From a virus: DNA of 32,392 nt. The notes under the pieces are model-generated. The model ran no database searches, was not told where the DNA came from, and worked only from the letters and a program-made list of their open reading frames with translations. The stretch covers positions 1 through 32,392 of the IMG/VR virus record IMGVR_UViG_3300001460_000063; one strand, given 5' to 3'. This document shows positions 1 through 18,932 of this stretch, piece after piece; within the stretch, counting starts at the first letter, position 1; the number at the start of each line of letters is the position of its first letter. The position numbers and the translations under genes were made by a program.

Positions 1-107
1 TAACGTTCGCTGTGTGCCGCCCACAATATCTCGCCTATACCTGAACTGTAATCCACAACAGCCATTGCGGCATCGTGGTTCATACAATTGATTCCTAATA
101 TCCTCAT
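1..107 (-). CDS. Carbamoyltransferase, NodU/CmcH-type (N-terminal fragment, runs off left edge)
   Basis: Only the first 35 codons are in the window. They read MRILGINCMNHDAA, then a short hydrophobic strand (AVVDY), then ILWAAHSER. This matches the opening of NodU/CmcH/TobZ O-carbamoyltransferases: a first beta strand, an HDA(S/A)A motif and an A(A/E)xSER motif. Family enzymes transfer a carbamoyl group from carbamoyl phosphate, with ATP, to a hydroxyl on a sugar or antibiotic. The ATG is at 107 and overlaps the stop of the zinc-ribbon gene as ATGA. A purine-rich AGGAAAAAG sits just upstream. The position after glycosyltransferase and SGNH genes suggests decoration of a sugar. The assignment rests on motifs in a short fragment, and the C-terminal domain is not visible. 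Confidence 0.72.
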   Translation of the reverse strand, partial: MRILGINCMNHDAAMAVVDYSSGIGEILWAAHSER

Positions 108-1188: not shown

Positions 1189-1293
1189 TTATTTGTATAT
1201 GAATGGGTCTTTCTTTTTCAACTCTTTGAGCCTCTTTCTGTAAGCTCTTTCTTGTTTGAACTTGTGCCAAAGATTCTTGATCCAGGTGAACAT
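1189..1293 (-). CDS. Basic 34-residue peptide
   Basis: The ATG at 1293 forms TAATG with the stop of the SGNH gene and is preceded by ATAGGAGAG, a good ribosome binding site. Translation gives MFTWIKNLWHKFKQERAYRK followed by a Lys/Leu-rich stretch ending in KDPFIYK. The first half is a likely amphipathic helix with three aromatic residues. The second half is highly basic. The TAA lies one base before the next ATG. The overlap, the Shine-Dalgarno sequence and the exact fill of a 100-base gap support a real gene. It might be a membrane-binding or RNA-binding peptide or a small partner of a neighbouring enzyme. No function can be assigned. Confidence 0.7.
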   Translation of the reverse strand: MFTWIKNLWHKFKQERAYRKRLKELKKKDPFIYK

Positions 1294-2093
1294 TATTTCT
1301 CTCCTATCAGTTTGTTAAAAGTTGGTAACATTAATTGTACAGCATCTCGATGTGCTTCGTCAAGTGGATGTGTTGAACCACGTGGATATTCATTCAACAG
1401 TGCCCATTGGTTGAATCCCATCATACGTTCTCCAAAAGAGAACCATTTGGTAAAATCTATCTCATTGTGCAGTGCGTTCATTAAAGAATCTTGATCCTTG
1501 AGATGTTCAAACACCTTATATAACAAACTGTTGTCAGCCAGTGTGAAAATGAATGGTATGCCCTTCTTTTCTAAAATGTTCTGTAGCCAAATGATACTTT
1601 TCCAACTAAGGTAGGTCTCGTGGTATTCATTCGCACCATATCTGTATATGGCTTCCGCAAAAGGCTTTACCCCGGTCTCCATCATTAGGTCTGCTCTCTT
1701 TTTCCATTGTTCCTGTTGTCCTTCTGATCCCGACAGTGCATTATGCCTTTCCTCACTTGAATTAGATGTGTCCCAAGGAGATATTGTGGCCCAACGTGTG
1801 CCTTCCAATTCCCTGTGTCTGGGCATGGCCCAATCGTACCGTGAGTTGAAACTCCACATCACCACCACACCTTTTATTTCTTTTGTTTTGGCCACTGCAT
1901 TGAACACTCTACGAGCTATACCGGAGTTGCCTGATCCTGGCCTGGCAGTGCAGACATAGTCACCGGTGGCTTTGCTCTGTTTGTAAAGTCCGTATGCCCA
2001 AGATTTCTCACTTGGTTTTTTACCTTTGTCGTCGTCTGACAGTTCGGACCCGTATGTGAAACTGCAACCGCCTACTATGATGTTCTTAGTCAT
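1293..2093 (-). CDS. SGNH/GDSL-type hydrolase-like protein, 266 aa
   Basis: The N-terminal strand leads into GCSFTYG (residues 9-15), where S11 is in the position of the SGNH nucleophile. Then come PGSGNSGIARRV (N56), an IKGVVVMWSFNSRYDW strand and loop, and near the C-terminus HPLDEAH (D245 and H248), the usual DxxH pair. The four conserved blocks are recognisable, although the family is divergent. SGNH enzymes remove or transfer acyl and other ester groups, often on sugars of polysaccharides. Placed between radical SAM genes and a carbamoyltransferase, it may edit a glycan. The start overlaps the upstream stop by eight bases and has no clear Shine-Dalgarno sequence, so translation may be coupled. 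Confidence 0.68.
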   Translation of the reverse strand: MTKNIIVGGCSFTYGSELSDDDKGKKPSEKSWAYGLYKQSKATGDYVCTARPGSGNSGIARRVFNAVAKTKEIKGVVVMWSFNSRYDWAMPRHRELEGTRWATISPWDTSNSSEERHNALSGSEGQQEQWKKRADLMMETGVKPFAEAIYRYGANEYHETYLSWKSIIWLQNILEKKGIPFIFTLADNSLLYKVFEHLKDQDSLMNALHNEIDFTKWFSFGERMMGFNQWALLNEYPRGSTHPLDEAHRDAVQLMLPTFNKLIGEK

Positions 2094-3267
2094 ATATTTT
2101 CAAAATATTATTTAAAAGTGGAAACATATCTCCAAAATTTTCTTTCCTATACTTGTCTGTTTGTAGTATTCTTCTTTTCCGTTCTGCTCTTATTTCAGGT
2201 GAATCCCTGTCGGCGGCATTCATGAATCTAATGCTGGGTTGATAGTCTGTTAGCATGTGGTATCTATCCACTACTATGTCCTTGACCTGCCTTGGCAGTG
2301 TCTGTATGTTGAACACTTCTGGATCAAAACAGGTGTTGACATAGAAAAATTTTGGTTGAAACTGTGCCACCCACATTGCCATCTTGGCCCAATTGAACAC
2401 GTTAAAAATATTCACTGTTGAACATATCTGGAAATCCATGTTTGGCGTTTTCATTTGTTTAAACTTGACAAGGTTCTGGTTCACTTCCCTCCACTTGGCT
2501 GGGTGTCTCTGATATTCAAAAGGTTCTCCCACGTCGTCAATGCTGAATGCCACTTCAACGTGCTTGAAGTAACTCCAAAGGTCAAATATCTCCTGTGGTG
2601 GCAACTGCGTGCCGTTGGTGTTGTAGTGTATGTCTATGTTCTTAGCGTAACCTTTCTCAACACAGTGCATCAAGATCTTGAAGTGGTCCTTGATCATGAA
2701 AGGCTCACCGCCCGTGAACTCAAAGTACTCCACGTGTTTTAGGTCCTCCTGTAACTCCTCAAAAAATTGTGGGTTACGTTTTGGCCAACCGCCCTCCTTC
2801 AATTGTTTCCTGGCGACAGGATTGTCTCCACCCTTGGCTGTCTCATAATCTATTTCTTCCTGTGCCCATTTTGAGGAACTCCACGATCCGCATATCCTAC
2901 ATTTAAGATTACACACGTTACCCAACTTAAAGTCAATAAACTTGAGTGTTGGCTCGCTATTAGGGGTCCAGGTTTCTAAACTGCTACGCATTTTGTAGAT
3001 CGAGTTTTGCCTTTTAGAAGTTTTGCCAGCATCTTCTTCTTGCCAACAGCTCTGGCAACCTGTAGGACGTTCGCCGCTCGTGAATTTCTCCCTAAGCAGG
3101 CCCATGTATTCTGTATGTTGTATAGATTTTAAACTCTGTTCGTATACTTTGACATTAGGAATACTGCCCTTGTACAAACAGCAGGGAGATGCACCACCAT
3201 TAACGTCAACTTCTAGATGTGTCCAAGGCAAAGGACATATGTTTGAATCTATATACTTGTCCACCAC
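2086..3267 (-). CDS. Radical SAM protein with N-terminal SPASM/twitch-like domain (fifth of five)
   Basis: Residues 11-74 form a SPASM-like cysteine domain: CPLPW (C11), NGGASPCC (C29, C30) and RPTGCQSCW (C71, C74). The radical SAM core follows, with CNLKCRIC (C119, C123, C126) binding the 4Fe-4S/SAM cluster, TGGEP at 185-189 for SAM, and YNTNG at 215-219. SPASM and twitch domains bind auxiliary Fe-S clusters and usually follow the core; here the order is reversed. The start is GTG at 3267 (a second GTG follows), with AAGGG eight bases upstream, inside the end of the previous gene. The family acts on peptides or small molecules. The substrate here is unknown. Confidence 0.88.
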   Translation of the reverse strand: MVDKYIDSNICPLPWTHLEVDVNGGASPCCLYKGSIPNVKVYEQSLKSIQHTEYMGLLREKFTSGERPTGCQSCWQEEDAGKTSKRQNSIYKMRSSLETWTPNSEPTLKFIDFKLGNVCNLKCRICGSWSSSKWAQEEIDYETAKGGDNPVARKQLKEGGWPKRNPQFFEELQEDLKHVEYFEFTGGEPFMIKDHFKILMHCVEKGYAKNIDIHYNTNGTQLPPQEIFDLWSYFKHVEVAFSIDDVGEPFEYQRHPAKWREVNQNLVKFKQMKTPNMDFQICSTVNIFNVFNWAKMAMWVAQFQPKFFYVNTCFDPEVFNIQTLPRQVKDIVVDRYHMLTDYQPSIRFMNAADRDSPEIRAERKRRILQTDKYRKENFGDMFPLLNNILKIYD

Positions 3268-4535
3268 TCTAACACCCTTTTATCTCTTCTTAATATTTTT
3301 GTAATGTCCTGTCTTCTGATCTTATCAATACTTTCTTGTCTCTGTTTTCCTTTTTTAGTTGGTGTAAAGGTCTCTCTGTTTTTTAAATTCTTTATTACAT
3401 CTATCAATGATCGTTGTTTTCGTGAGGCAAGAGGTTCTATGTATTCTAGAGCCTCATCAATCAGAGTATGTAGCAGTTCTTTGGGCAGTGCCAATGGACT
3501 TAGAATCTCATCATCGCTGAAAGTGAACATGACCTTTGTCAGTATCTCTGTGTCTAAATCTCTGCTCAGATCAAACATGTTTTTGAGCTCTAGTAACCCA
3601 GGCATCGTGATTGTGTAATCTAGCCTCATCTCCCTGGATGTTTTTGCCACTGCTAATCCTTCTTTGAAATTGCGTAACCACTGCTCGTAGTTCAATCCGT
3701 CTCTGATGTATTCGCCAACTTCACCTGTTCCGTCTAATGATGAACATATTTGCCAGTCCTGGAACTCAGGCAGTAAGTCAAACAGTTTGGTTCCCTTGAA
3801 TGATGTCCTACTTAGATTTGTGTTGTACCTCACATACACCTCTTTTGCGAATCCTAGTTCTATTATCCTCTGCATGGCTTTCCAATGCATGTCCCACATC
3901 AGTGGTTCCCCACCACACCAATATATTTCTTTTATCCTTTTTGTTTCTACTGCTTCGACGAACTCCTGCACAACCTGTGTGTCTTGGAACTTTACTATTT
4001 GTTCTCTCAAAGGTGATGCCATCCATGGTTGTGATTCTTTGCTCCATGTCTTGTTCTTCCTCGATTCTGCTTCCCAACTACTGCTCAACATGTCTCCACA
4101 CATCCTACATTTGAAGTTGCATAGATTGTTGAACCTGTAATCAAAACTGATGGTTTGCATTGTGGTCGCCCCTGTTTCGTCTGTGCTGTCGTATGCTTCG
4201 TCTACCCTGTCATTAAATAACTGATTCCAGTATGATCTGTATACGTCTGTGTTCAACAGTTTGTGGTCACACACTTCACACTCTGACAGTTCTTCGCCTG
4301 CCATCATACGCAGTCTCACAGATCGCATGTGGTCTGAATTCCAGTGTTCTTTCAGTGTAAGCGGTTTGTACTCTTTGGCGTCATTGCCCGTGTCTATGTA
4401 CTGCTTGAAACTCTGTGCAGGCTCTCTGGATGCACAACACATACGCCTCTCCGTCTGTGGCGACAGGTACGTGTGGGTCCACGGTGCCATGCAGAATGTT
4501 TTATTTCCCTCATTAGGTTTTATCCTATTTGTCAT
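3249..4535 (-). CDS. Radical SAM protein with N-terminal SPASM/twitch-like domain (fourth of five)
   Basis: I chose the ATG at 4535 (428 aa), which has GGAAGGAA upstream and overlaps the previous gene by 11 bases. An ATG at 4571 is in frame but lacks a ribosome binding site. The Cys-rich domain has FCMAPW (C15), RRMCC (C33, C34) and ECEVCD (C86, C89). The core has CNFKCRMC (C139, C143, C146) and CGGEP at 207-211, where the usual TGG is CGG. YNTNLSR and an SSLDGTGE segment follow. The C-terminal third is helical and very basic (RRQDITKILRRDKRVLEWW). It overlaps the next gene by 19 bases. Substrate unknown. Confidence 0.87.
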   Translation of the reverse strand: MTNRIKPNEGNKTFCMAPWTHTYLSPQTERRMCCASREPAQSFKQYIDTGNDAKEYKPLTLKEHWNSDHMRSVRLRMMAGEELSECEVCDHKLLNTDVYRSYWNQLFNDRVDEAYDSTDETGATTMQTISFDYRFNNLCNFKCRMCGDMLSSSWEAESRKNKTWSKESQPWMASPLREQIVKFQDTQVVQEFVEAVETKRIKEIYWCGGEPLMWDMHWKAMQRIIELGFAKEVYVRYNTNLSRTSFKGTKLFDLLPEFQDWQICSSLDGTGEVGEYIRDGLNYEQWLRNFKEGLAVAKTSREMRLDYTITMPGLLELKNMFDLSRDLDTEILTKVMFTFSDDEILSPLALPKELLHTLIDEALEYIEPLASRKQRSLIDVIKNLKNRETFTPTKKGKQRQESIDKIRRQDITKILRRDKRVLEWWTSI

Positions 4536-5814
4536 ATTTGTCGAAAAGTTCCTTCCATTCAGGGAACACATCTGTAAATTTTTCTTTTCTCACTTCGTCA
4601 TACTTCTTGGTTCTTTCAAAAAACCATTGAAGATGCTGTGTATTATCTTTCTTATACATCCAATCCAGAGCAGATTCATATCCTTTACTTGCACGGGTAA
4701 GGTGATCCTGATCCTTTAGCCATTTCAAATGTGCTGTATATTTTTCTTTAATCTGTTCTTTGTATTCTAATGGAAGAATGTCCAACCTTTGCCAAGTTGG
4801 CATTTGTAAAAGGTTATAATTAAAATCTTCTGGTTTGATTAGGCCTTGCTCGACCCAACTCCTATGAAAATCCGCAACGTGTAATGCATTTGGAAGACTC
4901 ACAGTGGAAGAAATATAGAAATCAACTTTTGGAGATACTTCCATCATTCTTTTTCTATTGTTAATAGTTTGTTCCCATTTGGTACCGGTACGCATCAACT
5001 CTGCACGTGGCCCTTCCGCGTCAAGACTGGCTCCCACAGATACTGAATCAAATTTATTCCATAATTCTAACACATCCATGTCTTTGAATTTGAGTCTTGA
5101 AAAATTAGTATTGTATATCAATCTAATATGATATGCTTTTCTTCTATCCAATTCTTTCAAAATTCTATAATGCTCCTCCATTATTAATGGTTCTCCACCT
5201 GCAAAATAAAATTGTTCAGCATGATCAATATTTTCCAAAACCTGTTCCCACATATCGTCTGCTTTTCTGCCTACTTTTATTATTTTTGCATGATTAGGCG
5301 GACCGCCATTTATTTTGATATGATCCTCGTACCAATTAGAACTAAACCATGTTCCACAACTTCTGCAGGCAAAATTACAGATATTGCTGAATCTTATATC
5401 CCAATATTTCATCACAAAGTCTGCTGTACCGTCTGCTTGGGTTGAGTTAACTAAATCAATGTTGTGTCCAAAATGTTTGTTTGAACTTAAACGTAATGAA
5501 AAGAAACCTGAATCTTCTTGGTCATAACACTTCGCACACTGTTTGCATTTCTTACCTGACAACATGTTTCTACGCATTTCCTTCATTTTATCATTGTTGA
5601 AAACTTCCTTTAAACTGTTTTTGTTGAAGTCCCCGACTGGATAGCGATCAAAACTGAAACAACAAGGGTATGCCCTGCCATCTGGGTACGCATGGAGATG
5701 CATCCAAGGAAGCATACAGAAAGTTTCACTTTCTATCAAAAGTTCCTTCTGACGATCCGTCATGTCTTTAATTTTTAATTTCTCAGGCTCCTTCGCTCCG
5801 TAATTATATGCCAC
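4525..5814 (-). CDS. Radical SAM protein with N-terminal SPASM/twitch-like domain (third of five)
   Basis: This gene has the clearest SPASM-first architecture. FCMLPWMHLHAYPDGRAYPCC (C33, C51, C52) is followed by VGDFNKNSLKEVFNNDKMKE and KKCKQCAKC (C90, C93, C96). This is very like the textbook SPASM pattern normally found at the C-terminus. The core has CNFACRSC (C146, C150, C153), AGGEP at 205-209 and a YNTNFSR strand. The gene is far richer in A+T than its neighbours: 13 of 60 bases are G or C at 5101-5160. That suggests a different origin from the GC-richer members of the array. It overlaps the previous gene by 11 bases. Confidence 0.9.
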   Translation of the reverse strand: MAYNYGAKEPEKLKIKDMTDRQKELLIESETFCMLPWMHLHAYPDGRAYPCCFSFDRYPVGDFNKNSLKEVFNNDKMKEMRRNMLSGKKCKQCAKCYDQEDSGFFSLRLSSNKHFGHNIDLVNSTQADGTADFVMKYWDIRFSNICNFACRSCGTWFSSNWYEDHIKINGGPPNHAKIIKVGRKADDMWEQVLENIDHAEQFYFAGGEPLIMEEHYRILKELDRRKAYHIRLIYNTNFSRLKFKDMDVLELWNKFDSVSVGASLDAEGPRAELMRTGTKWEQTINNRKRMMEVSPKVDFYISSTVSLPNALHVADFHRSWVEQGLIKPEDFNYNLLQMPTWQRLDILPLEYKEQIKEKYTAHLKWLKDQDHLTRASKGYESALDWMYKKDNTQHLQWFFERTKKYDEVRKEKFTDVFPEWKELFDKYDK

Positions 5815-7147
5815 GGTACCATTCTCCTATTATTGGGAAAGTCTTTTCAAAGTCCTTTCCTGATCGTTTGTCGTATTGACTGTAAAATGCTTTGAAGTCT
5901 TTCTGTAGTTTGCTCTGCTCGGCCGCACCCGCGTGTGGTGTTTTAACAACATCCAAGTAATCTATTAATCTCTGTGTTTGATTTATTTCCATATGTTCTA
6001 GGTGTTTCTCGTTACTACTTAAGAACTTTACCAAATCCAGTTTAAATTTATTTCTCAGGTCGTCTGGTAGTACAAGAGGTGATTGGAAACTAGGAAATCT
6101 CAGAATATTCAGTGTAAAATTGATTGTTGGTCCATACACCTTGCTGGCGCCTTTGAACCATATCATTTTCTCTAGAAACTCGGGTAATGTTTCTAAACAT
6201 AAAGCATTTATTGTGGCCATGTTGTGTATCTCACTAGGCACTTTATCAACCATCATGTGTAGCAAGTTCGAGTGCCATGTTCCAAAATCTAATCCATCTC
6301 TGATGTATCCTGCCTGATCAAATGTTGCTTCACAACTTGTATAAAGATGGAAATTTTTAAATCCTTTTAGTTTTGTTTTGAACCGATCAATGATGCTCTG
6401 CTTTGCACCAAGGTTTGAGTTTATGGCAATACGCATGTTAGGATTCATCTTTTCACCTTGCGTTTCTATCCAGTCTAGCAATCTCCATAGATTAGGTGAC
6501 ATCATGGGTTCGCCTCCTGTTATTCTCAATTCATCTAGACTCCTGTGTAGATCTGTTTCCCACCATTTGTAAAACGCTTCTACGTAGGGATTTGTCTCGT
6601 CCTTCTTGTATGGTTCTGCAGAATCGTGTGCATGAGTGAAATGGTTTCTGCCATCTGATTCCAGTCCTGTATATGGGCCTTGTCTTTTTATGTTGTTGGC
6701 CCACGTGGAACTGAAAGCAGGATTACAATACGTACAGGCAAAGTTACATGTTCTGTCAAACGCTATCTCCAATGTTTTTAAATTTACATTTTCATTGTGA
6801 TCATTGTTGTATGCTTTGTCTAAGTCGTCATTTGTGAATATCCTTGATTTGTAAACCCTATCGCTGATGTTATCTCTTCCTACATCCTCTATCTTCCAGC
6901 AGTACTCACATCCTGCAGGCCTCTCTCCACACTGCATCTGTCTACGTTGTTCTTTTTTCTGAATTGTGTTGTGTATGGCACTGGGATTAGTCTTAATCTC
7001 CTCTAGGTCTATCTTGTGCGGGAGTGGATGGTGGCAACTTGTGGTCATGCCACTGCCCAACCATATTGTAGCATTGTACCACTTGGCTCCGCAGAAACTT
7101 GCACTCTTTGGATCCAGTATCTGTTTCTTGTATTCTAGATCATTCAT
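5804..7147 (-). CDS. Radical SAM protein, variant N-terminal Cys/His domain (second of five)
   Basis: The N-terminal domain has FCGAKW (C19), GMTTSCHHPLPH (C38) and GERPAGCEYCW (C80, C83, with an extra C73). The Cys-Cys pair of the three downstream paralogues is replaced by Cys-His-His. The core has CNFACTYC (C134, C138, C141) and TGGEP at 210-214, with ETNPYVEAFYKWW just before it and GYIRDGLDF later. These extra segments are shared with the gene immediately upstream, so the two look like a tandem duplication that diverged. The ATG overlaps the previous stop as ATGA, with GGGAGGAG upstream. It probably modifies a peptide or glycan-linked substrate; neither is identified. Confidence 0.87.
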   Translation of the reverse strand: MNDLEYKKQILDPKSASFCGAKWYNATIWLGSGMTTSCHHPLPHKIDLEEIKTNPSAIHNTIQKKEQRRQMQCGERPAGCEYCWKIEDVGRDNISDRVYKSRIFTNDDLDKAYNNDHNENVNLKTLEIAFDRTCNFACTYCNPAFSSTWANNIKRQGPYTGLESDGRNHFTHAHDSAEPYKKDETNPYVEAFYKWWETDLHRSLDELRITGGEPMMSPNLWRLLDWIETQGEKMNPNMRIAINSNLGAKQSIIDRFKTKLKGFKNFHLYTSCEATFDQAGYIRDGLDFGTWHSNLLHMMVDKVPSEIHNMATINALCLETLPEFLEKMIWFKGASKVYGPTINFTLNILRFPSFQSPLVLPDDLRNKFKLDLVKFLSSNEKHLEHMEINQTQRLIDYLDVVKTPHAGAAEQSKLQKDFKAFYSQYDKRSGKDFEKTFPIIGEWYRGI

Positions 7148-8514
7148 GCGTTTCTACACTCCTCCCAGAATTCCGTCATCTCAGGGAAGGTGTTAAGGAA
7201 CCTTGTGAGACGTCTGCGATCGTGCTCGTTAAAGAAAGCGTAAAAGTTTCTTTTATTTTGCGTACTTGCGTCCGCGTTTTCGCGCCAGTATGCGAGATTC
7301 CTCTGCATCTTCTGGATCTCGAAATCCTTGAATATGTGTAGTCCGTTGTCCTCGCCGGAGTTGGCCTGCATGTACTTGATGTTGTCCTCGTGTATGCCCT
7401 GGTACGCCTCTGGTAGCAACGTGATCTGTTGCCATGCGGGTTGCCTCAGCAGTGGCACGTCGAACCAAACCCTCTGGTACGTCTTGCTGTATTTTTTACG
7501 TAGGTCCAATATTTTCTCTAGCAGTTTGTCCATGCTGGTTATACTGAGGTTGTTGTATGTGCATATGAACGTGATCGAATTACGTTCCGGTATCCTGTCC
7601 AGGAACTCCTCCACGTTGTCCATCATGTAGTCGAAGTCCAGACCGTCACGGATGTACTCAGCACGTTTGCCGAATGCGTCCACGCTCACGAACTGCATCA
7701 TGTGTTCAACCTTCTCCTGCATACATATCTCCTTTGCCATGTTGAAGTACTTCTCCTTGAGTTTCTTGTCTGGTGGACACAGGTTGCTGGTCACATTGAG
7801 GTGTAGGTCATCCTTGGGATGATCTATTATGTACTGGAACACCTTGTAGGTGTTCACATCCATCATGGGCTCTCCTCCGGTCATACGGAAGTGCTTTAAA
7901 TTCTTGTACAGGGTTGGCCACCACTTCCAAAATGCCTTCACGTAGGGGTTCTCCTCCCTGTGTGGTATGGGTTTGCGCCTGCCCTGGAAGTGTTCTGGTG
8001 CGTTATGGGGAGGAGATGTTGGATATTCGCCGTATCTGTCCACCTCCTTCGCCCAGGTTGTCGAGAACTGTGGTGAACAATAACTGCACTTGAAGTTACA
8101 AGCGTTGTTGAAGTTCACCTCCACGTATCTCGGCGTCCAACTTGTGGTCATTGGATTCTTTCTAATATCATCGAAGTCCTGCATGGCCCAGGGCTCTCCT
8201 GACCTGTAGTGCCTGTCGGACATCTCACCGGTCTTTTCTATGTTCCAACAATAACTACAACCCTGTGGCTTCTCGCCATCTAACATCTGCTGTCTCTGTT
8301 GCAGTTTCTCTTTCGTGTTGTGCAGTGCCGCTGGGTTCGACCTGACCGCCTCTGCATCCATGTTGTGCAGTGGTGGGTGATAGCAACTGTTGGTCATGCC
8401 TGTTGGCAGGTGCAGTGACGTCTGGTTCCATTTTGCCAGGCACATTGTGGGAGACACTTCCTCCAGTTTATCCTTGGCCACCAATGCGTCGTTCTTGTAA
8501 TCACTAGTGCTCAC
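7144..8514 (-). CDS. Radical SAM protein, variant N-terminal Cys/His domain (first of five)
   Basis: The start is GTG at 8514, with GGAG nine bases upstream, inside the end of the glycosyltransferase gene (11-base overlap). The N-terminal domain has MCLAKW (C25), GMTNSCYHPPLH (C44) and GEKPQGCSYCW (C86, C89). The core has CNFKCSYC (C139, C143, C146), ENPYVKAFWKWW, and TGGEP at 212-216. It is the closest relative of the next gene, and both carry Cys-(His/Tyr)-His in place of Cys-Cys. It is also notably GC-rich: 32 of 60 bases at 7621-7680. It is the first of the five-gene array, directly behind a glycosyltransferase. Confidence 0.87.
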   Translation of the reverse strand: MSTSDYKNDALVAKDKLEEVSPTMCLAKWNQTSLHLPTGMTNSCYHPPLHNMDAEAVRSNPAALHNTKEKLQQRQQMLDGEKPQGCSYCWNIEKTGEMSDRHYRSGEPWAMQDFDDIRKNPMTTSWTPRYVEVNFNNACNFKCSYCSPQFSTTWAKEVDRYGEYPTSPPHNAPEHFQGRRKPIPHREENPYVKAFWKWWPTLYKNLKHFRMTGGEPMMDVNTYKVFQYIIDHPKDDLHLNVTSNLCPPDKKLKEKYFNMAKEICMQEKVEHMMQFVSVDAFGKRAEYIRDGLDFDYMMDNVEEFLDRIPERNSITFICTYNNLSITSMDKLLEKILDLRKKYSKTYQRVWFDVPLLRQPAWQQITLLPEAYQGIHEDNIKYMQANSGEDNGLHIFKDFEIQKMQRNLAYWRENADASTQNKRNFYAFFNEHDRRRLTRFLNTFPEMTEFWEECRNA

Positions 8515-9403
8515 GGTCTTGGACTCCTCTGTTTATGTGTTGGGGTTTGACAAACCTATAGAACTTGCTCTGGATCTCGTCCATTTCTGCTATGGGCATG
8601 TCCAACTGCTGTCGCAGGCTGTTGCCGAACAACAGTAATTGCTTATCTATGTCGTCCCTGTCTATCACACCCTTGAAGTACTCTATCATGTGGTCGAGAT
8701 CCCTCACCTTGTAGAGATCCTTGTTGTAGTTTTCCAGCACGGTGTAGTAACAACCCATCCTGGCGCCCAACATGGCGTACTTGCCATACTCGACATCGGC
8801 TCCTATTGTACACCAAGTGCTCAGTGTACTGAGATTCTCTGGCCATATACTATGAAAATTATCTTGCTTGAGTGCAACACCCTTCTCTGTACTCATCTTG
8901 ACACCTTCCCTGTACCCTGCAATAAAACACTGCTCATCACTGCCATTTATTACTGTGTCAGAATAGCAGTTGTGTAGATTCTCATGTGGCACGCCCCAAC
9001 AGAAATCGATCTGATTCTCCTCTGAATCAGCGTTCTCGTGTGTCCTCATGCTGAGACAGGTCTCCTTAGGCCAACCAACTACGCCACCGTTACCGTACAC
9101 CAGACCATTCACATTATTTTTTGCCCGCCAACGGTGCACCGCTTTTGGATTAGTTTTGTTCCAATCCAATGTGTTTAGAAGAAATCGCTCGTCTAATATG
9201 TTATCACCATCAATGCTTATGAAGAAGTCGGTCTGTGCTATGTCCGCCGCGGCCTTGTGTGCGTTGTCGAAACCCACGACCCTGTCAACCCGCTTGGCCC
9301 ATGGCACCTTGTTCTTGAGGTCCGCCCAGTTTTCTTCCTTGTTGGGCTCCTTGAACGAGATGTACACGAAGTCAAGATCACTTATTCTTGTTCTATCTGC
9401 CAT
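8504..9403 (-). CDS. Glycosyltransferase-like protein (GT-A/GT2-like), 299 aa
   Basis: The N-terminal half has alternating strands and helices (LDFVYISF, RVDRVVGFDNAHKAAADIA) leading to FFISIDGDNIL. The DGD at residues 65-67 is in the position of the DxD metal and nucleotide-sugar binding motif of GT-A enzymes. The rest (RWRAKNNVNGLVYGNGGVVGWPKE and a later NGSDEQCFIAGYREG) fits an acceptor-side region. It should transfer a sugar from a nucleotide sugar in the cytoplasm. A strong GGGAGGGG lies before the ATG. The gene overlaps both neighbours, so it is part of the same coupled operon as the radical SAM genes. Donor and acceptor cannot be predicted. Confidence 0.68.
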   Translation of the reverse strand: MADRTRISDLDFVYISFKEPNKEENWADLKNKVPWAKRVDRVVGFDNAHKAAADIAQTDFFISIDGDNILDERFLLNTLDWNKTNPKAVHRWRAKNNVNGLVYGNGGVVGWPKETCLSMRTHENADSEENQIDFCWGVPHENLHNCYSDTVINGSDEQCFIAGYREGVKMSTEKGVALKQDNFHSIWPENLSTLSTWCTIGADVEYGKYAMLGARMGCYYTVLENYNKDLYKVRDLDHMIEYFKGVIDRDDIDKQLLLFGNSLRQQLDMPIAEMDEIQSKFYRFVKPQHINRGVQDREH

Positions 9404-9684
9404 GTGACCCCTCCCTCTGATATTTTTTTTGGCCAGTGTATGTCTGCGTCCTGGAAGAAATAGCCCTCGTCTGCTTTCAGTAATATGCTGTACTGTGTTT
9501 TTGGCTTTGGCTTAGGTTTTAATACTATCGCTCCATCCTTGAGCATCAAGTTCTCTTCTCCGTGCTGTTGTGCCCACAATTTCTTAGCCAGTGTGACTTC
9601 GTGTTCCACACCTTGCACTGTGATGAAAAACTTCTTTGGTCCTCTCTTGGGCAGTTTATTCAGTGCATCAAACAATCCTGGCAT
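9382..9684 (-). CDS. Conserved-looking unknown protein, 100 aa
   Basis: I chose the ATG at 9684 because AAGGAG lies four bases upstream. A GTG at 9723 in the same frame also has an AGGAGAG upstream, but it would overlap the previous gene by 56 bases. The protein starts MPGLFDALNKLPKRG. It has a basic strand-rich part (KKFFITVQGVEHEVTLAKKLW), a Lys-Pro repeat (KPKPKPK), and a C-terminal YFFQDADIHWPKKISEGGV. I do not recognise the family. Its place between two glycosyltransferase genes suggests a partner or modified substrate of that pathway. The alternating KP segment is likely an exposed linker. Confidence 0.65.
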   Translation of the reverse strand: MPGLFDALNKLPKRGPKKFFITVQGVEHEVTLAKKLWAQQHGEENLMLKDGAIVLKPKPKPKTQYSILLKADEGYFFQDADIHWPKKISEGGVTWQIEQE

Positions 9685-10462
9685 GTAACTCCTTATCGTG
9701 ATAGTGCCATACCCTGCTGACACGTGTCTCTCCTATGTAAACAGCATCTCCCACCTTGTTGGGATATAGGTATTCATTCTGGTTCTTCGCCTGCATGGTG
9801 TTGTTTACTGCTCGCTTGTGGTGTATGAATTTAAACCAATCGTAATCTATCAATCCCTGTGACGTGGGATCCATGATCCTATAAGCCAATGCAAACACAA
9901 CGTCAGTGCTTGGGTACTTGTCATGGCAGTTGATAAGCATTCTTGTTTTGACGTCATTCCAATTTTTTACTACGTCTCGTGCTGTGTTGTAGAACTGCTG
10001 TGCCTTGGTGCTTTGTCTGAAATACATCAGACCGTTGTATATGTTGGGTAATTGGTTCCTGTTGAAAAGTTTCCTGTACGGTGTTTCTTTAATGATGTTG
10101 TCCCTGTAATCTCTACAATTGACACTGAACACTAGATCATGTTGCGATAGGTGGTACCACCACCAGTCCGTGTTTATTGTCCATAACATGTCCGCCTCTA
10201 ATTTAATCGTGTGCGTGAATGGCGTCATGGCAAATGCCTTGTGCTCGTTGGCCCACTTGATATCATGTTCGGCACTATCGTCTTGCTTGATAACTTTTAC
10301 CACGTCCACGTGTTCATTCTCGAACTTGCTTTCATTATCCGTGATCACACATACCTGGTTGTACCTGTTCCAACGTTTAATGCTCTTGGCTAGGGTAATG
10401 GACAGTTCGACGTAGTCAGTCTTGGCGTTGTTCTGTGCGAACCATAGGAATCCTTTAGACAT
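9668..10462 (-). CDS. Glycosyltransferase, GT8-like, 264 aa
   Basis: The opening (GFLWFAQNNAKTDYVELSITLAKSI) and an NQVCVITDNES segment resemble the nucleotide-sugar binding half of GT8-type enzymes. TIKLEADMLW (E89-x-D91) stands where the DxD motif is expected. Later GLMYFRQSTKAQQFY is the strand and helix that follows in this fold. The gene starts at 10462 with AAGGAG seven bases upstream and overlaps the preceding gene by eight bases. It is distantly similar in plan to the gene just upstream, so the pair may add two successive sugars. The substrate is unknown. Confidence 0.7.
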   Translation of the reverse strand: MSKGFLWFAQNNAKTDYVELSITLAKSIKRWNRYNQVCVITDNESKFENEHVDVVKVIKQDDSAEHDIKWANEHKAFAMTPFTHTIKLEADMLWTINTDWWWYHLSQHDLVFSVNCRDYRDNIIKETPYRKLFNRNQLPNIYNGLMYFRQSTKAQQFYNTARDVVKNWNDVKTRMLINCHDKYPSTDVVFALAYRIMDPTSQGLIDYDWFKFIHHKRAVNNTMQAKNQNEYLYPNKVGDAVYIGETRVSRVWHYHDKELHARIV

Positions 10463-11204
10463 TGGCTATCTCCTTGTTTAGCACGTGTACATCTTGTTGT
10501 TCAACAAAACTGATGTTGTCATTGTGCTTCCATACAACACCATTGTCTTCAAAACTCAAGATCTCACAGTCAGGTGGCAGTGTTGATAAGGCAAAAGGAA
10601 AAGTATCATACCCAACAAAGCCGTTAAGTTGCTGGAGTGCTATGGCAAACACATAATCGTTACGTAGATTTTTTGCCCTAATCCTGTAAAGTTCATTAAA
10701 GTACGGATACCATTCTTTTACGTATTTGACCATTTGAAATATTTGGTTAACTCTTTTATTCTTTTTAAAGTATAAAACTGTAGCCCACACCATTGGTATG
10801 AGACTAAACCTCCTATGATCAAAACTGTTCATACCGCTGAGATCATGTGCTTTGTTTGGCACAAGGAAGTCATAATCTGTATTAAAAAGTTGTAAGAGAT
10901 TGTCTGTGAAACAAAAATAGTCTATGTCCATTACGATAGTTTTATCATACGGGGATAGTTCATAGGCCATGTGCCTGTCAACATTGTTCCAAGGTTTGCC
11001 TAGTTTCGTGTTGCCTAATTCAGGTTCCATGAATTTGTAATTGATTGATCCTAAAGGTGTGATTTTTTTAAATGTATCAAAATTAGTAACAACAGTTATC
11101 TCTAATTTTAGATTTTTTTTGATAAGTGCAACACATCTTTCAAGTATCTTGTGATACCGCGTGTCTTCTGTGTCAAAACAAAATAATAGAACTCCTTGCG
11201 TCAT
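10455..11204 (-). CDS. Glycosyltransferase-like protein, GT8-like, 249 aa
   Basis: The protein opens with a strand (GVLLFCFDTEDTRY), then LEITVVTNFDTFKK, and reaches KTIVMDIDYFCFTDN. The D93-x-D95 motif is a classic metal-binding DxD after a hydrophobic strand. Later segments (PMVWATVLYFKKNKRVNQIF, NDYVFAIALQQLNG) fit the second half of a GT-A fold in which the protein alternates with acceptor loops. The ATG shares a base with the previous stop (TAATGA) and is preceded by AAAGGTG. It is the second gene behind the 11.5 kb promoter. The fold assignment is fairly safe; the sugar is not known. Confidence 0.66.
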   Translation of the reverse strand: MTQGVLLFCFDTEDTRYHKILERCVALIKKNLKLEITVVTNFDTFKKITPLGSINYKFMEPELGNTKLGKPWNNVDRHMAYELSPYDKTIVMDIDYFCFTDNLLQLFNTDYDFLVPNKAHDLSGMNSFDHRRFSLIPMVWATVLYFKKNKRVNQIFQMVKYVKEWYPYFNELYRIRAKNLRNDYVFAIALQQLNGFVGYDTFPFALSTLPPDCEILSFEDNGVVWKHNDNISFVEQQDVHVLNKEIANV

Positions 11205-11521
11205 TAATCACCTTTTTTTGTAAAAGTTTCGTACATCTGATGATATGCGTTCAAGGCCTCCTGGTTACGTGCAATCAGTTTCATCAAAAAATCATCAGCA
11301 TCCTTGATTTCAACGGGATTGTTGTTGGTGTCCAGTAAGAAAAAAATGCTGTGGGTCTCTTTGAGTGTTTTCACAAGGCATATTGTCTGAGGATTAGCAA
11401 TGAAAAGATTTCCATTGTATGCTAATACCTGTCGAGAATGTGCTTTTTCCAGAGCGTTGCGTTTGGCAACTGCTACGTTGTAAGAAAAGTCCGATTGTTG
11501 TTTTAAAGAGCGAATATCCAT
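11204..11521 (-). CDS. Conserved-looking phage protein, 105 aa, first gene of the accessory operon
   Basis: I chose the ATG at 11521 (MDIRSLKQQSDFSYNVAVAK). The in-frame codon 15 bases upstream is a TTG that lies in the promoter -10 box. The protein is helical at both ends with a short central beta part (VLAYNGNLFIANPQTICLV, SIFFLLDTNNNPVEI). No signal peptide or membrane segment is seen. I do not recognise a function, although the general look is that of small conserved proteins of T4-like marine phages. There is no Shine-Dalgarno sequence, and the predicted transcription start coincides with the ATG. It is therefore a candidate for leaderless translation. Confidence 0.72.
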   Translation of the reverse strand: MDIRSLKQQSDFSYNVAVAKRNALEKAHSRQVLAYNGNLFIANPQTICLVKTLKETHSIFFLLDTNNNPVEIKDADDFLMKLIARNQEALNAYHQMYETFTKKGD

Positions 11522-11550
11522 ACCACAATTATACAATAATTATGGTGGTA
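11521..11550. promoter_or_regulatory. Palindrome over the promoter, possible operator
   Basis: Two pairs of complementary arms are nested: TACCAC with GTGGTA, and inside them AATTAT with ATAATT. The loop is TGT, and there is one three-base bulge (CAT) on one side. The 12 paired bases are perfect. The palindrome covers the promoter spacer, the -10 box and the start codon. It could be a repressor site or an RNA hairpin. No run of T follows on either strand, so an intrinsic terminator is unlikely. Confidence 0.5.
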
Positions 11551-11569: not shown

Positions 11570-12523
11570 TTATGATGTTGAGTTACTTACTTGAGCGTTT
11601 GAAGCCGTTTTGATGTCTGCCGCAAGTCCCTGTGAGTCGTTGGGCGATACTTCAATAAGTGCCATGGTCATTATAGGTGCCTCGTTGGGGTTGGTCGGAA
11701 CACCGTCCGTGTTACCACTAGTGTACGTGTCGTCGTTGTCCCCATCAGTCGAAAGCATTTTTACAGTCATCACTGTCGCTGAACCAATTGCCGCATTTAG
11801 TTTGGCAGATATCTCAACTGTGTTGGATGTGTAACCTGAGTTGTCTGAAGTCAATTTGATAATTGTTGTGTAACCTGTACCTAGGTCATGGAAGCCATTT
11901 CCCAGGCCGTTTGTTGTGAGTGTTTCACCTGATCCTGATCTCGTACTTGCCTGTGCCGCGATGTCTAGGTTACCGATCGCTGTAACTGTTAAATCATTGA
12001 ATACCGTGTCTTTGAGTCCATCAATACCTGTTGTACAACTTGGGTCGACCCTGATCTTTCCGCCTCCATTGAAGAATGCTCTCATCGTGTTGTTGTTTGC
12101 GAATGTTACTGATCTCTCAATAGTTGATGTTCCGTTCCATGTTGCTCCATTTGAACTTGATCCAACTGCTGTGGTGTCAAGTGCTGTAACGTTTACTCCA
12201 CCTGCCGCGACGTCAGCCGCCAAGTTGGCTAGGTCTGAGATCAATGCTGATCTGATAGCAATGGCGTCTCCCGCTGAAACTGATGATGATGTGATCGATC
12301 TATTTAGGTGATTGGCAATGTTGTCCATTCCTGTGAATAAACTATTCCAATGTGATGCGGCGATTGTGTCACCCGCACTAACCGTTGAAATTGTTGCTTG
12401 GTTTAACCCATATACCGTTGATCCTGGACCCGCGAAGTGGTTGTATCCAAATGGATCCGATGAACTGTTTACAAACTCGTTGTATTCATCGTCTAAAATT
12501 GCGTCACCTGCCGAATATGCCAT
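11570..12523 (-). CDS. Virion structural protein, fibre-like, 317 aa
   Basis: The N-terminal part has three copies of a SAGDxI motif. Two are in the form SAGDAILDDEYNEFV and SAGDTIAASHWNSLF, spaced about 45 residues apart, as found in marine phage tail-associated proteins. The rest is low in Cys and Lys, rich in Ser, Thr, Gly and Asn, and strand-forming (VFNDLTVTAIGNLDIAAQ). Such composition is typical of fibre or baseplate decoration proteins. The last part (PIMTMALIEVSPNDSQGLAADI) is more ordered. The start has ATAGGAG upstream, and the gene ends just before the accessory promoter. The exact tail position is not known. Confidence 0.65.
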   Translation of the reverse strand: MAYSAGDAILDDEYNEFVNSSSDPFGYNHFAGPGSTVYGLNQATISTVSAGDTIAASHWNSLFTGMDNIANHLNRSITSSSVSAGDAIAIRSALISDLANLAADVAAGGVNVTALDTTAVGSSSNGATWNGTSTIERSVTFANNNTMRAFFNGGGKIRVDPSCTTGIDGLKDTVFNDLTVTAIGNLDIAAQASTRSGSGETLTTNGLGNGFHDLGTGYTTIIKLTSDNSGYTSNTVEISAKLNAAIGSATVMTVKMLSTDGDNDDTYTSGNTDGVPTNPNEAPIMTMALIEVSPNDSQGLAADIKTASNAQVSNSTS

Positions 12524-12527
12524 TTTC

Positions 12528-14159
12528 TTATTTTACTCCTATCACACACTCTGTTAATTGTGTGTCTTGCGAATATTTATCCTTCATCAACCTGCCCAGC
12601 GTATTAAAAGCGGTACATTTGTCCAGGTCAGCAACTCTGGCCTCACCTTTGCCTGCTGAAACCACGCGGTCGCCCGCTTTGCCTGTACCTGTCAATTTCA
12701 CCATTACACGCCCTTTAAGTGCCACCATAGGATGTGAGTCATTATTACCTGCATTAGCGTTCATTAGGAACGCTGGTGACTCTGATATCACACCAAAAAC
12801 GGAGTCTGACAGTTCATCTTTGCAAATGGTTATCTCTGCATCACCGCCTAGTATGACCACATCTCCCACTTCCGTCTGACAGTCTGCTTCGTAACGTTCT
12901 GCCAAGTCAGCATATTGCGCCGACGTTGATGTTGCATGAACTATGTTTGCTCTGATGTCCACAAGTGTTGGTGCCTCTAGCGCCGTGTCTGTGTTAGCGG
13001 CGGCCTTGAATGCTGTCCAGGCACCACCCGCGTTACCATGTACTGTTGTACCGTCGTCTGCGAATGTTTCATCCCATACCCAATATAGGTCTTGTTCTGT
13101 GGCGCTGGAGGTCTCTCCCCTGTTTACTTTTAGACCTGTGTGGCTGGGCATACCTGCGTTGTTGGATACCCCCCTGTTTAATTCTATTATGTTGTCTTCC
13201 ACAGACAGCGTCGATGTGTTAATAATTGTGTTTGTACCATCAACAGTAAGGTCACCAACCCTAAGATGTTCGATCCTGCCCGTTGATCCTGTTATCCTTA
13301 ATGCCTCTTTTGTTGTTCCGCCATCGTTTACCGTAAAAATTATATCCTTGTCCTGTGTGGTCTGTGCTACAGTGAAATCATCACTGGACAATGTCATCGT
13401 AATGTCATTGCCGGCACCTAGTCTTATACCATCGTCTGTTTGTATTGTGATTCTGCCTGTTGTTGTATCTGCTGAATCTGATCTTAGATAGTTGGCCGCA
13501 ACAACTCCACCTAATTGTTCCGAGTCTGTGGCTGTGCCTCTGAATTTCGCTGATGTGACAGATGATGAAAGTTGAATACCCTGTGCCACTGTTGAGAAAC
13601 CTGCTGACACGAGTGCCGCCCCAAGTGTTTCTGTAGAGCTTGGTGTAAATGCAAGATTTGATACTACACCTACGACTGTGTCATTGGCTACAAGTTTCAA
13701 AATACTACGTTTTACACCTGTGTTGTCTTCCGGTGATTCAGTTATCACCTGTGTAACGCCTGAACCTGCTACTGTTGTTGGTCCAATCAGTGTCCATGCC
13801 GATCCTGTGTACACATAAAGTTGTGTATTTGTTGTGTCAAACCACATGTCTCCAAGAACAGCACTAGATGGTGCTGAAGCGGAGTTTGAAGTTGATCCCA
13901 CTGGTTTGAACTTAGAGCCAGTGTATACATTCAATTGATTGTTTGTCTTGTCATACCATAACTGTCCTTGTATTTTGTTTGAGGGTGCTGTGGTATTATT
14001 GAAATTCTCTAGGAGTTTTACAAGGTTTTCGTTCAACCTCTCACCGAACCCTGCGTAGCCTTTACCTATGAGTGTGAGGTCTGTGGTCGCGACATCTATT
14101 GTCCCGTCCGCTAGTGTGACCAATAAGGTCCCGAATGTGTTGTTTATCTTGTATGCCAT
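12528..14159 (-). CDS. Fibre-like virion protein, 543 aa (paralogue C)
   Basis: The N-terminal 125 residues contain a shared module: GKGYAGFGERLNENLVKLLENF, then two copies of a unit of the form G(D/Q)(L/M)W(Y/F)DxTNxQLxVYTGSxW/F. The middle has NYLRSDSADTTTGRITIQTD and FTVNDGGTTKEAL cassettes found in the two other fibre paralogues. From about residue 415 there is a YADLAERYEAD domain with VGDVVILGG and VFGVISESPAFLMN. It resembles the C-terminal Peptidase_G2-like intramolecular chaperone domains of tail spikes. That domain would trimerise or release the mature fibre; cleavage is not shown. It lies between the 60-residue gene and the 317-residue virion gene. Confidence 0.75.
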   Translation of the reverse strand: MAYKINNTFGTLLVTLADGTIDVATTDLTLIGKGYAGFGERLNENLVKLLENFNNTTAPSNKIQGQLWYDKTNNQLNVYTGSKFKPVGSTSNSASAPSSAVLGDMWFDTTNTQLYVYTGSAWTLIGPTTVAGSGVTQVITESPEDNTGVKRSILKLVANDTVVGVVSNLAFTPSSTETLGAALVSAGFSTVAQGIQLSSSVTSAKFRGTATDSEQLGGVVAANYLRSDSADTTTGRITIQTDDGIRLGAGNDITMTLSSDDFTVAQTTQDKDIIFTVNDGGTTKEALRITGSTGRIEHLRVGDLTVDGTNTIINTSTLSVEDNIIELNRGVSNNAGMPSHTGLKVNRGETSSATEQDLYWVWDETFADDGTTVHGNAGGAWTAFKAAANTDTALEAPTLVDIRANIVHATSTSAQYADLAERYEADCQTEVGDVVILGGDAEITICKDELSDSVFGVISESPAFLMNANAGNNDSHPMVALKGRVMVKLTGTGKAGDRVVSAGKGEARVADLDKCTAFNTLGRLMKDKYSQDTQLTECVIGVK

Positions 14160-14372: not shown

Positions 14373-14828
14373 ACGTGATTCGATCTGCTCATCGTCTGAT
14401 ATCCAAGTTAAATCCCTGGTATATGCCCCGTCTAGATCGTGTATGAAAGTCTTAACGTTGCTCTCCGTAAGCACCATATTGTGGTATTTGGTGTATCTTT
14501 TGTGCAGTGCTTGTTCTTTTGTGGCAGTATAGACCAATTTCAATTTTTTTGTCTTTGCTAATTTGATAATCTCATCTATACACTGTTTCAAACAATTATG
14601 GACAATACGCTGTTTTGCGTCCTTGTCAGTCACCAACCATTCCATAAGGCCAAACGCAGTACCATCACAGACATACAAGCCACCAGCACAGATAGGCACA
14701 CCGTCATGCTCAACTACTATGCCGTCGGGAGGGAGGCACTCCTTTGGAACTACACCAAACTCCCACTTGTTCCACCATTTGACAAGTGTTTCATAATCCT
14801 TGTCTCTGTCCCACGATCTACTTTGCAT
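14364..14828 (-). CDS. GNAT-like acyltransferase, 154 aa
   Basis: The length and order of elements fit a single-domain GNAT enzyme. An N-terminal helix (DYETLVKWWNKW) is followed by DGIVVEHDGVPICAGGLYVCDG, which resembles the central strands. FGLMEWLVTDKDAKQRIVHNC matches the strand, acetyl-CoA loop and helix. KLVYTATKEQALHKRYTKYHNMV matches the last strand and the closing helix. A strict Q/RxxGxG/A loop is not present, because the loop reads DKDAKQR. The start overlaps the dehydrogenase stop by 11 bases. It is the last of a three-gene enzyme group placed between virion genes. Substrate unknown. Confidence 0.58.
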   Translation of the reverse strand: MQSRSWDRDKDYETLVKWWNKWEFGVVPKECLPPDGIVVEHDGVPICAGGLYVCDGTAFGLMEWLVTDKDAKQRIVHNCLKQCIDEIIKLAKTKKLKLVYTATKEQALHKRYTKYHNMVLTESNVKTFIHDLDGAYTRDLTWISDDEQIESRNK

Positions 14829-15408
14829 TTTTCTGTAACACTATTTTGTTCACATTAAAAGTCGACTCAAAACAGTATCTTACTGCATCTGCAACTTCTT
14901 GTGCTGTTAATTTTGGCAGATTATCCCATAATCCTTTTGTCATATCTGTGTCTACCACGTCTGGACATATGTCATACACCGACAAAGGTTTGTTTAATAA
15001 TTCTTCCTGTAGTTCACTGATGTATTCTATCAATTCTTTTTTGATTTCGCAATACTGTGAGTACTCAAACTTATCCCACAGTTTAAATTGGTGTAGGTCA
15101 GGTTCGTCGTCTAGTCCTGACGTGCTGGTGATAACCGCTACTTGCATTTTATCAAATGAATGTTGTCCGTAAATTCTCTTCAGCAAGGTCAATTGTCCTC
15201 TCAAGGAGTGTGCATTCAACACGACGAGACCACAGTCTTCAATTTTTTCCAAAATTTTTTCTTGATCATGAACAAGGTCAAAACCATTGCTCCTGCTTAA
15301 ACCCACAACGTCATATTTCTTATTCGTGTACAGATCGGCTATTGCTTTACCTATGCCTCGTGTATGACCTATAATTGCAATTTTATTTTTGTTTTTTCCT
15401 AGATTCAT
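14818..15408 (-). CDS. Short-chain dehydrogenase/reductase-like protein, 196 aa
   Basis: A Rossmann opening KIAIIGHTRGIGKAIADLY has GHTRGIG at 14-20, the TGxxxGIG nucleotide site with His in place of the usual Gly or Ala. LVVLNAH (N65) fits the NAG motif. TSTSG at 94-98 holds the serine strand, and YCEIK (Y119, K123) is the YxxxK active pair. DVVDTDMT matches the segment after the active site. At 196 residues it is shorter than the usual 240-250, lacking part of the substrate loop. It likely reduces or oxidises a sugar or small molecule with NAD(P)H. It overlaps the oxygenase gene by 26 bases. Confidence 0.78.
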   Translation of the reverse strand: MNLGKNKNKIAIIGHTRGIGKAIADLYTNKKYDVVGLSRSNGFDLVHDQEKILEKIEDCGLVVLNAHSLRGQLTLLKRIYGQHSFDKMQVAVITSTSGLDDEPDLHQFKLWDKFEYSQYCEIKKELIEYISELQEELLNKPLSVYDICPDVVDTDMTKGLWDNLPKLTAQEVADAVRYCFESTFNVNKIVLQKNAK

Positions 15409-16054
15409 ATGTGTCCACTAAATTTTCTAATCCTTCGAAACACTCCGAATAGTGTTGGTAATATTTTTCAAACTTATCTTTAGTGTACGCTGATTCTTTC
15501 CAAAAGTCAATCAATAACGTGGTCCTTGGCTTGGTATTTTTGTTGAAGCCGTTGTGTATTTGTTTGTCCGGCTGGAATACATAAGCGTCACCAGTTTTCC
15601 ATGTCATAAGTTCTTGTTCACGTGTTTCCAAGTTCATCACTTGCATACCGCTTTGATCTCCACCACCATCGTCAAGGCACATTTGATACCGCCATCCTCC
15701 CTCGTTATCTGTATGGTTACCAATTTTTGTGTCTGGTCCAACTGTCATAATAGCAACATTAGTTTTGTATGGAAATTTTCGCAGTATAGAGTACAGCATT
15801 GGATAATCGTTGAAATGTTGCAGTTCCTTCTCCCCAGACTGTATTCCCAGTGCCTGCCATTCTCCGTGGACATAGTCACCTGACCTATCATCAAAGTCGT
15901 CGGGCAGTCCCCTAACACTGTCAGAGAAATCTTCTGGTTCTAGAAAAGTTTTGTTTGGTTGTGTATCGAACTCGTGTTTTATGTTTTCCCAGTGTTTATC
16001 TAACTGTCTGAAACATTCGCCTTGTTGTCCTTGATAAAAACTACTATGAAGCAT
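15383..16054 (-). CDS. 2-Oxoglutarate/Fe(II) oxygenase, Asp/Asn beta-hydroxylase-like, 223 aa
   Basis: The iron-binding facial triad is visible: H114-x-D116 in IGNHTDNEGGWRYQ, then H167 in KQIHNGFN. R177 follows in PRTTLLIDFW, ten residues on, as the likely 2-oxoglutarate salt-bridge residue. A MTWKTGDAYVFQP strand before H167 is typical of the aspartyl/asparaginyl beta-hydroxylase and related cupin-fold oxygenases. The enzyme would hydroxylate an amino acid side chain or small molecule. It overlaps the end of the glycine-rich Hint protein by 11 bases, which makes that protein one possible target, but this is only inference. The C-terminus is basic and helical. Confidence 0.82.
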   Translation of the reverse strand: MLHSSFYQGQQGECFRQLDKHWENIKHEFDTQPNKTFLEPEDFSDSVRGLPDDFDDRSGDYVHGEWQALGIQSGEKELQHFNDYPMLYSILRKFPYKTNVAIMTVGPDTKIGNHTDNEGGWRYQMCLDDGGGDQSGMQVMNLETREQELMTWKTGDAYVFQPDKQIHNGFNKNTKPRTTLLIDFWKESAYTKDKFEKYYQHYSECFEGLENLVDTYESRKKQK

Positions 16055-18918: not shown

Positions 18919-18932
18919 TGCTTATATTTAGC
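18919..18932 (-). promoter_or_regulatory. Possible late promoter, one mismatch
   Basis: The minus strand reads GCTAAATA at 18932-18925. It differs from NATAAATA at one position and spans the stop codon of paralogue A. The ATG of paralogue B is seven bases further. The placement matches the two exact late motifs, but the mismatch keeps confidence low. Confidence 0.25.

Follow-up and report, generated by a model that had tools for sequence, protein, structure and literature searches.

The window analyzed here comprises bases 1–32392 of a 40304-bp IMG/VR virus record (IMGVR_UViG_3300001460_000063), and our subject is an array of five consecutive, overlapping open reading frames (ORFs) on its minus strand (2086–8514). 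Each of the encoded proteins, here called A to E, carries a Cys-rich N-terminal domain ahead of the CxxxCxxC core of radical S-adenosylmethionine (SAM) enzymes, an arrangement that the initial annotation had proposed and that the ORFs, the family model NF033640 and the Cys motifs bear out:

7144–8514, minus strand: gene A, N_Twi_rSAM, first in the array; 456 amino acids; NF033640 325 bits; CLAKW...SCYHPP...GCSYC, then CNFKCSYC; clade of 40 loci, support 1.0
5804–7147, minus strand: gene B, N_Twi_rSAM; 447 amino acids; NF033640 296 bits; CGAKW...SCHHP...GCEYC, then CNFACTYC; clade of 38 loci
4525–5814, minus strand: gene C, N_Twi_rSAM; 429 amino acids; NF033640 416 bits; CMLPW...PCC...CAKC, then CNFACRSC; clade of 46 loci
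3249–4571, minus strand: gene D, N_Twi_rSAM; 440 amino acids, with an internal Met at 12 codons that may be the true start; NF033640 322 bits; CMAPW...MCC...CEVC, then CNFKCRMC; clade of 39 loci
2086–3267, minus strand: gene E, N_Twi_rSAM; 393 amino acids; NF033640 364 bits; CPLPW...PCC...CQSC, then CNLKCRIC; clade of 40 loci

All five proteins pass the curated cutoff of 170 bits of NCBIfam NF033640 (N_Twi_rSAM, twitch domain-containing radical SAM protein), scoring 296–417 bits from model positions 1–2 to 393–398 of 398, and their enzyme architecture thus already has a name. The NCBIfam entry names the architecture only, with neither a substrate nor an array, whereas A to E form separate clades with different signatures. 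The core CxxxCxxC occurs in all five and is invariant in 866 of 866 distinct members. Pfam Radical_SAM scores above its cutoff in C, D and E and under it in A and B, and Pfam SPASM matches the N terminus of the three CxxPW proteins (C, D and E) only, not that of the two CxxKW proteins (A and B). As A is homologous to C over its full length (hhalign E = 6.6e-41), the CxxKW proteins are, judged from their sequences, a diverged subtype of the same family. Both motif variants had been noted at the outset; the GxxPxGCxxC motif described with them holds for A, B and E but not for C and D, where the domain ends in CAKC and CEVC.

The twitch cysteines of the five proteins lie within residues 11–101 and the core cysteines within residues 119–158. 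The former are spaced 18–19/41–53/3, the second gap being approximately 42 residues and 53 in D, and about 45–51 residues separate their CxxC from the core CxxxCxxC. The group C profile matched the twitch of BtrN, the twitch radical SAM dehydrogenase of butirosin biosynthesis (structures 4m7t and 4m7s of the PDB), with E = 4.5e-6 and with the cysteines in register at matching spacing, which speaks against the possibility that the N-terminal cysteines are scattered. A CC pair occupies the second ligand position of C, D and E, its first Cys being in register with BtrN, and A and B have there a lone Cys followed by a His-/Pro-rich stretch. The four twitch cysteines are conserved across A to E, and all seven cysteines are kept in 857 of the 866 distinct members, a count that is the same when either Cys of the CC pair is accepted as the second ligand. 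The N-terminal domain of each enzyme is thus of the twitch type, with Cys, hairpin, Cys and CxxC as the predicted ligand set of an auxiliary cluster, and would be expected to hold a [4Fe-4S] cluster.

The twitch Cys pattern and spacing of BtrN are common to A to E; its twitch follows the core, whereas theirs precedes it, and the likeness does not amount to evidence for the same reaction. The same reversal holds against the canonical SPASM and twitch enzymes, in which the auxiliary domain is C-terminal to the core. The AlphaFold2 models were confident (mean predicted local distance difference test 92.1 for C and 91.8 for A), and Foldseek searches of the PDB returned radical SAM enzymes acting on peptides, proteins, sugars or nucleotides at template modeling (TM) scores to the query of at most 0.37. 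The best folds (CteB, anSME, SuiB and SkfB) combine, like A to E, a radical SAM core with an auxiliary Fe-S cluster domain. Such scores are to be expected when the domain order has changed, and the matches identify no substrate.

In a tree of 326 relatives, A to E fell into five separate clades, each present once in most phages, and on this sequence evidence they are five ancient, nonredundant paralogues. We found 162 loci with all five genes, 134 of them distinct by their A protein. Most of the phages have the order ABCED, and the lineage of the window has ABCDE. A first scan was anchored on E and a second on A, the latter counting loci with at least 9 kb of downstream DNA; with A as the anchor, all five genes were present at 47 of 48 loci and the 48th carried a C+E fusion, which contradicts the idea that the five rarely occur together. 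Anchoring on c6, a gene that nearly always adjoins the ABCED array, gave all five at 60 of 66 loci and some array genes at every one of the 66. Several exceptions among the anchored loci were C+E fusions; the scans are not fully independent, some contigs having been retrieved by more than one anchor. Seven contigs carry neighboring members joined into a single open frame (A+B in one, C+E in five and E-like+D in one), and ratios of nonsynonymous to synonymous polymorphism (pN/pS) of 0.07–0.40 in comparison with close relatives indicate purifying selection. Given the 162 complete loci, the seven conserved cysteines and the purifying selection, the array is not a product of chance.

A conserved array need not have a joint function: a successful gene family may expand in a moron-like manner, its members traveling together through adjacency alone. 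The numerous copies of N_Twi_rSAM (1–17 per record in 18 phage records), found at scattered sites, and the only partial correlation of the pairwise distance matrices among the five proteins (0.36–0.78) fit such an expansion. It is, however, quite unlikely to explain five ancient clades represented by one gene each, their near-obligate co-occurrence and order, the conservation of seven cysteines and the fusions of adjacent members.

The phage is T4-like in the array region, as its structural genes include a gp25-type baseplate wedge protein and a base-V-type protein, both in the record beyond the window. Tail-fiber-like and very large structural proteins are encoded upstream of the array on the minus strand (11.5–32 kb). 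The array may lie in the host-recognition cluster, the structural region between VrlC and gp14 in T4-like phages: tail-fiber-like and structural genes are upstream, VrlC was not recognized by name, and the gp14 side is off the record. More generally, the array is carried by a large uncultured group of T4-like phages, next to tail-fiber genes. The conserved order in the relatives is tail fiber, c7, c8, c3, c3, small ORF, c1, array, c6 or c4, and carbamoyltransferase, represented as follows:

11570–12523, minus strand: c7, conserved protein, probably structural, between the tail-fiber-like genes and the cluster; 28 members in 26 loci
11204–11536, minus strand: c8, small conserved protein preceding the c3 pair; 22 loci; no Pfam match
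10455–11204, minus strand: c3, GT8-like glycosyltransferase by synteny and glycogenin match, first of the pair
9668–10462, minus strand: c3, GT8-like glycosyltransferase by synteny and glycogenin match, second of the pair
9382–9723, minus strand: variable small ORF, 113 amino acids, between the c3 pair and c1; no family match
8504–9403, minus strand: c1, conserved protein directly upstream of A; same family at the c1 position of relatives
1293–2093, minus strand: c4, SGNH-type hydrolase-like by motif only, downstream of E; no Pfam match; 39 members in 27 loci
1–107, minus strand: c5, TobZ/NodU-type carbamoyltransferase truncated where the record ends; N terminus MRILGINCMNHDAAMAVVDYSSGIGEILWAAHSER, first 35 codons (3–107) in the window
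locus L034, 11258–12322, plus strand: c6, which follows the array in ABCED phages

These genes support the sugar-type neighborhood described initially. The carbamoyltransferase said to frame the array is real, a full-length relative of c5 matching both Carbam_trans_N and Carbam_trans_C, though the window holds merely its beginning. The match of the c3 profile to glycogenin is weak (E = 0.006), and c7 has a distant match in PA5oct-type Pseudomonas jumbo phages. Neither c1 nor c6 had a Pfam or PDB match; we rejected c1 as a proven glycosyltransferase, its likeness to one (an invariant DGDN) being visible by eye only. In relatives, a carbamoyltransferase, an NAD epimerase, a DegT aminotransferase, a UDP-glucose dehydrogenase and an APS-kinase-like protein are encoded in or near the locus downstream. 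The T4 late promoter TATAAATA was not found in the window, and promoter and terminator scans of the window stayed at chance level.

Among the tail genes of the window, a Gly-rich tail-type protein (16044–17474, minus strand) has a C-terminal part resembling a Hint (intein-like) domain, weakly and below the cutoff, and a tail-fiber-like protein (12528–14159, minus strand) weakly matches the self-cleaving chaperone domain Peptidase_G2; a stretch of another tail-fiber-like protein (18928–20424, minus strand) is by eye similar to one in the latter. An aspartyl/asparaginyl beta-hydroxylase-type oxygenase (15383–16054, minus strand) lies amid the tail-fiber-like genes, adjoining a short-chain dehydrogenase (14818–15408).

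Gene C had matches in just three records of the phage collection; for gene A, c1, c3, c6 and c13 there were none. With the array and neighboring genes nearly unmatched there, isolate records contain essentially nothing of the window's lineage. Plasmids gave no match. A cultured relative is the Vibrio phage K566, in which five N_Twi_rSAM matches, two of them over the cutoff, are interleaved with two GT8 genes and a weak GT4 match; they are divergent (~20% identity) and do not form the A to E set. The protein Q6WHP4 of KVP40 is a structural relative that matches the model of C along most of its length (TMq 0.58) and is likewise divergent and outside the A to E set. In cellular genomes, N_Twi_rSAM occurred in 2 of 396 Bacteroidota, and one Bacteroidota contig carries a copy near a GT1-domain protein and a methyltransferase. 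K566 and this contig are independent contexts that pair N_Twi_rSAM with glycosyltransferases.

One of the two Bacteroidota cases is a 7.6-kb contig from a Flavobacterium metagenome-assembled genome (L087, 1–7653). It holds genes C, D and E of the array, in that order, together with an inverted B-type copy; a gene for a B12-type radical SAM protein and an oxygenase-like gene lie in between. The contig is probably misbinned phage DNA. A second, shorter radical SAM family (~300 amino acids) with C-terminal Cys motifs occurs near N_Twi_rSAM genes in L053, L058, L064, L065 and L067. Two single phage records carry many N_Twi_rSAM genes, 17 in G410 (the record of L153) and 16 in G002 (the record of L012).

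Parts of this picture have precedents. The host-recognition cluster of pelagimyophages, which contains tail fibers, glycosyltransferases and radical SAM cassettes (PMC7029224), is the same type of region as that of the array in T4-like phages; the portion of that paper considered here presents the cassettes as added between two genomes and describes neither an N-terminal twitch nor an ordered module of five paralogues. The marine genome TARA_ERS488813_N000010, likewise T4-like, has 12 radical SAM genes together with an A-type Fe-S carrier (PMC5332604), the same combination of many such genes and a carrier of its own as in our records; in the sections of that source covered, the genes appear as Fe-S-related auxiliary genes and their array structure is not analyzed. 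The N_Twi_rSAM family, the pelagimyophage cassettes and radical SAM-rich T4-like phages were thus already known. What is new here is the array as an ordered five-paralogue module, and no earlier description of such a module with an N-terminal twitch, its fusions and the linked c6 was found among open-licence papers.

We interpret the array as one module of five nonredundant radical SAM enzymes acting on a shared substrate, most likely a glycan or glycoconjugate, and give this reading a probability of roughly 0.45. Its parts differ in strength. Because the enzymes are distinct, conserved, co-inherited and sometimes fused, they very probably carry out five different steps, or act at five different positions, on one substrate and in contact with each other. 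That this substrate, if shared, is a glycan has about an even chance and rests on the genomic context: the upstream GT8-like pair, the carbamoyltransferase, the NAD epimerase, the DegT aminotransferase, the UDP-glucose dehydrogenase, the contexts of K566 and the Bacteroidota contig, and the published host-recognition cluster of pelagimyophages (PMC7029224). Also in favor of the module are A-type Fe-S carrier genes, present as one or two each in 11 of the 18 N_Twi_rSAM records and in 11 of the 13 of those >250 kb. The initial observation of the array is thus confirmed and its interpretation supported in part, a multi-step radical route for a glycan or polypeptide being plausible, with the glycan favored by context.

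For the catalysis, we infer that each enzyme would cleave SAM at its core cluster and remove a hydrogen atom at a position of its own on the shared substrate, and that the twitch cluster would take up or return an electron, giving a net oxidation, epimerization or bond formation. The five enzymes would probably cooperate physically. Their substrate would most likely be a glycan or glycoconjugate made by the neighboring glycosyltransferases and sugar-modifying enzymes of the host-recognition cluster, and the modified glycan could be used on the virion adsorption apparatus or the surface of the infected cell. Tentatively, the array would represent a physically coupled five-enzyme radical assembly line that modifies one glycan or glycoprotein of either location, a viral carbohydrate chemistry so far undescribed.

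The main rival is modification of a protein or peptide: in the manner of SPASM/twitch maturases, the five enzymes would cross-link, epimerize or oxidize, for instance, a tail-fiber protein, another protein of the virion or the product of the small ORF that precedes c1. SPASM maturases have a C-terminal SPASM domain and peptide or protein substrates, usually with one enzyme per pathway. The top structural neighbors of C are enzymes of this kind (CteB, anSME and SuiB), SkfB is with BlsE at the top for A, tail-fiber-like genes precede the array, and a variable small ORF recurs between the c3 pair and c1, making it a candidate protein substrate. The position of this ORF is conserved, with c13/c22-type small proteins taking the slot elsewhere, but its sequence varies between lineages, unlike that of the enzymes; moreover, radical SAM core folds all match one another, the TM scores are low, and the genes surrounding the array are of the sugar type. 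We consider a protein substrate possible, though a doubtful choice.

The match of A to BlsE and the likeness to BtrN are compatible with the production of a small molecule or cofactor, or of a viperin-like modified nucleotide active in infection. The substrates of BtrN and BlsE are small sugar-like molecules, BtrN oxidizing an aminocyclitol alcohol. The core similarity to viperin is weak, the viperin model scoring 16–33 bits against a cutoff of 180, the same level as any radical SAM core, and no export or cofactor genes were recognized, which leaves this function unlikely. The glycosyltransferases and the carbamoyltransferase, accompanied in some loci by a dCMP deaminase and a QueC-like protein, would also suit the decoration of a hypermodified DNA base as in T4-like phages. 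We hold a role in DNA hypermodification to be highly unlikely: the methylase/Tet route is disfavored, as a C5 cytosine methylase was present in 0 of 14 large phage records, with the control search positive in 10 genomes, and the array is placed with tail genes rather than replication genes. Tet_JBP had no match in the phage records, in a search that gave matches nowhere.

Several observations weigh against a glycan-modifying module. No enzyme of known substrate shares the architecture of A to E, and the top Foldseek matches of C are enzymes on peptides and proteins and those of A are SkfB and BlsE. The distance correlations imply that the unit is mostly co-inherited, with single genes sometimes exchanged. 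The c3-c3-c1 unit is not confined to loci with the full array, all five genes being present at 11 of the 43 c1-anchored loci and some N_Twi_rSAM at 37; c6, tightly linked in ABCED phages, is absent from ABCDE phages and lacks a family identification. Lone N_Twi_rSAM genes are inserted between gp47-like and gp46-like recombination genes (L047, L048, L079 and L081) or lie beside a uvsX-like gene (L052, L080 and L085), and since no glycosyltransferase accompanies these copies, the family is not exclusively glycan-linked. Finally, the frequency of A-type Fe-S carrier genes was counted within the N_Twi_rSAM records, without a control set of other large phages. The carriers adjoin radical SAM genes in some cases, not clearly above a rough expectation, and we gave this adjacency no weight.

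Radical SAM enzymes are usually found one or two per pathway. That many large phages maintain, under purifying selection, five nonredundant members that co-occur obligately and have a rearranged domain order would point to an unusual multi-site radical chemistry performed by viruses. Which of the enzymes touch each other can be predicted directly, and testably, from the fusions and the fixed order, and related genes in a cultured Vibrio phage open a route to the question of the substrate.

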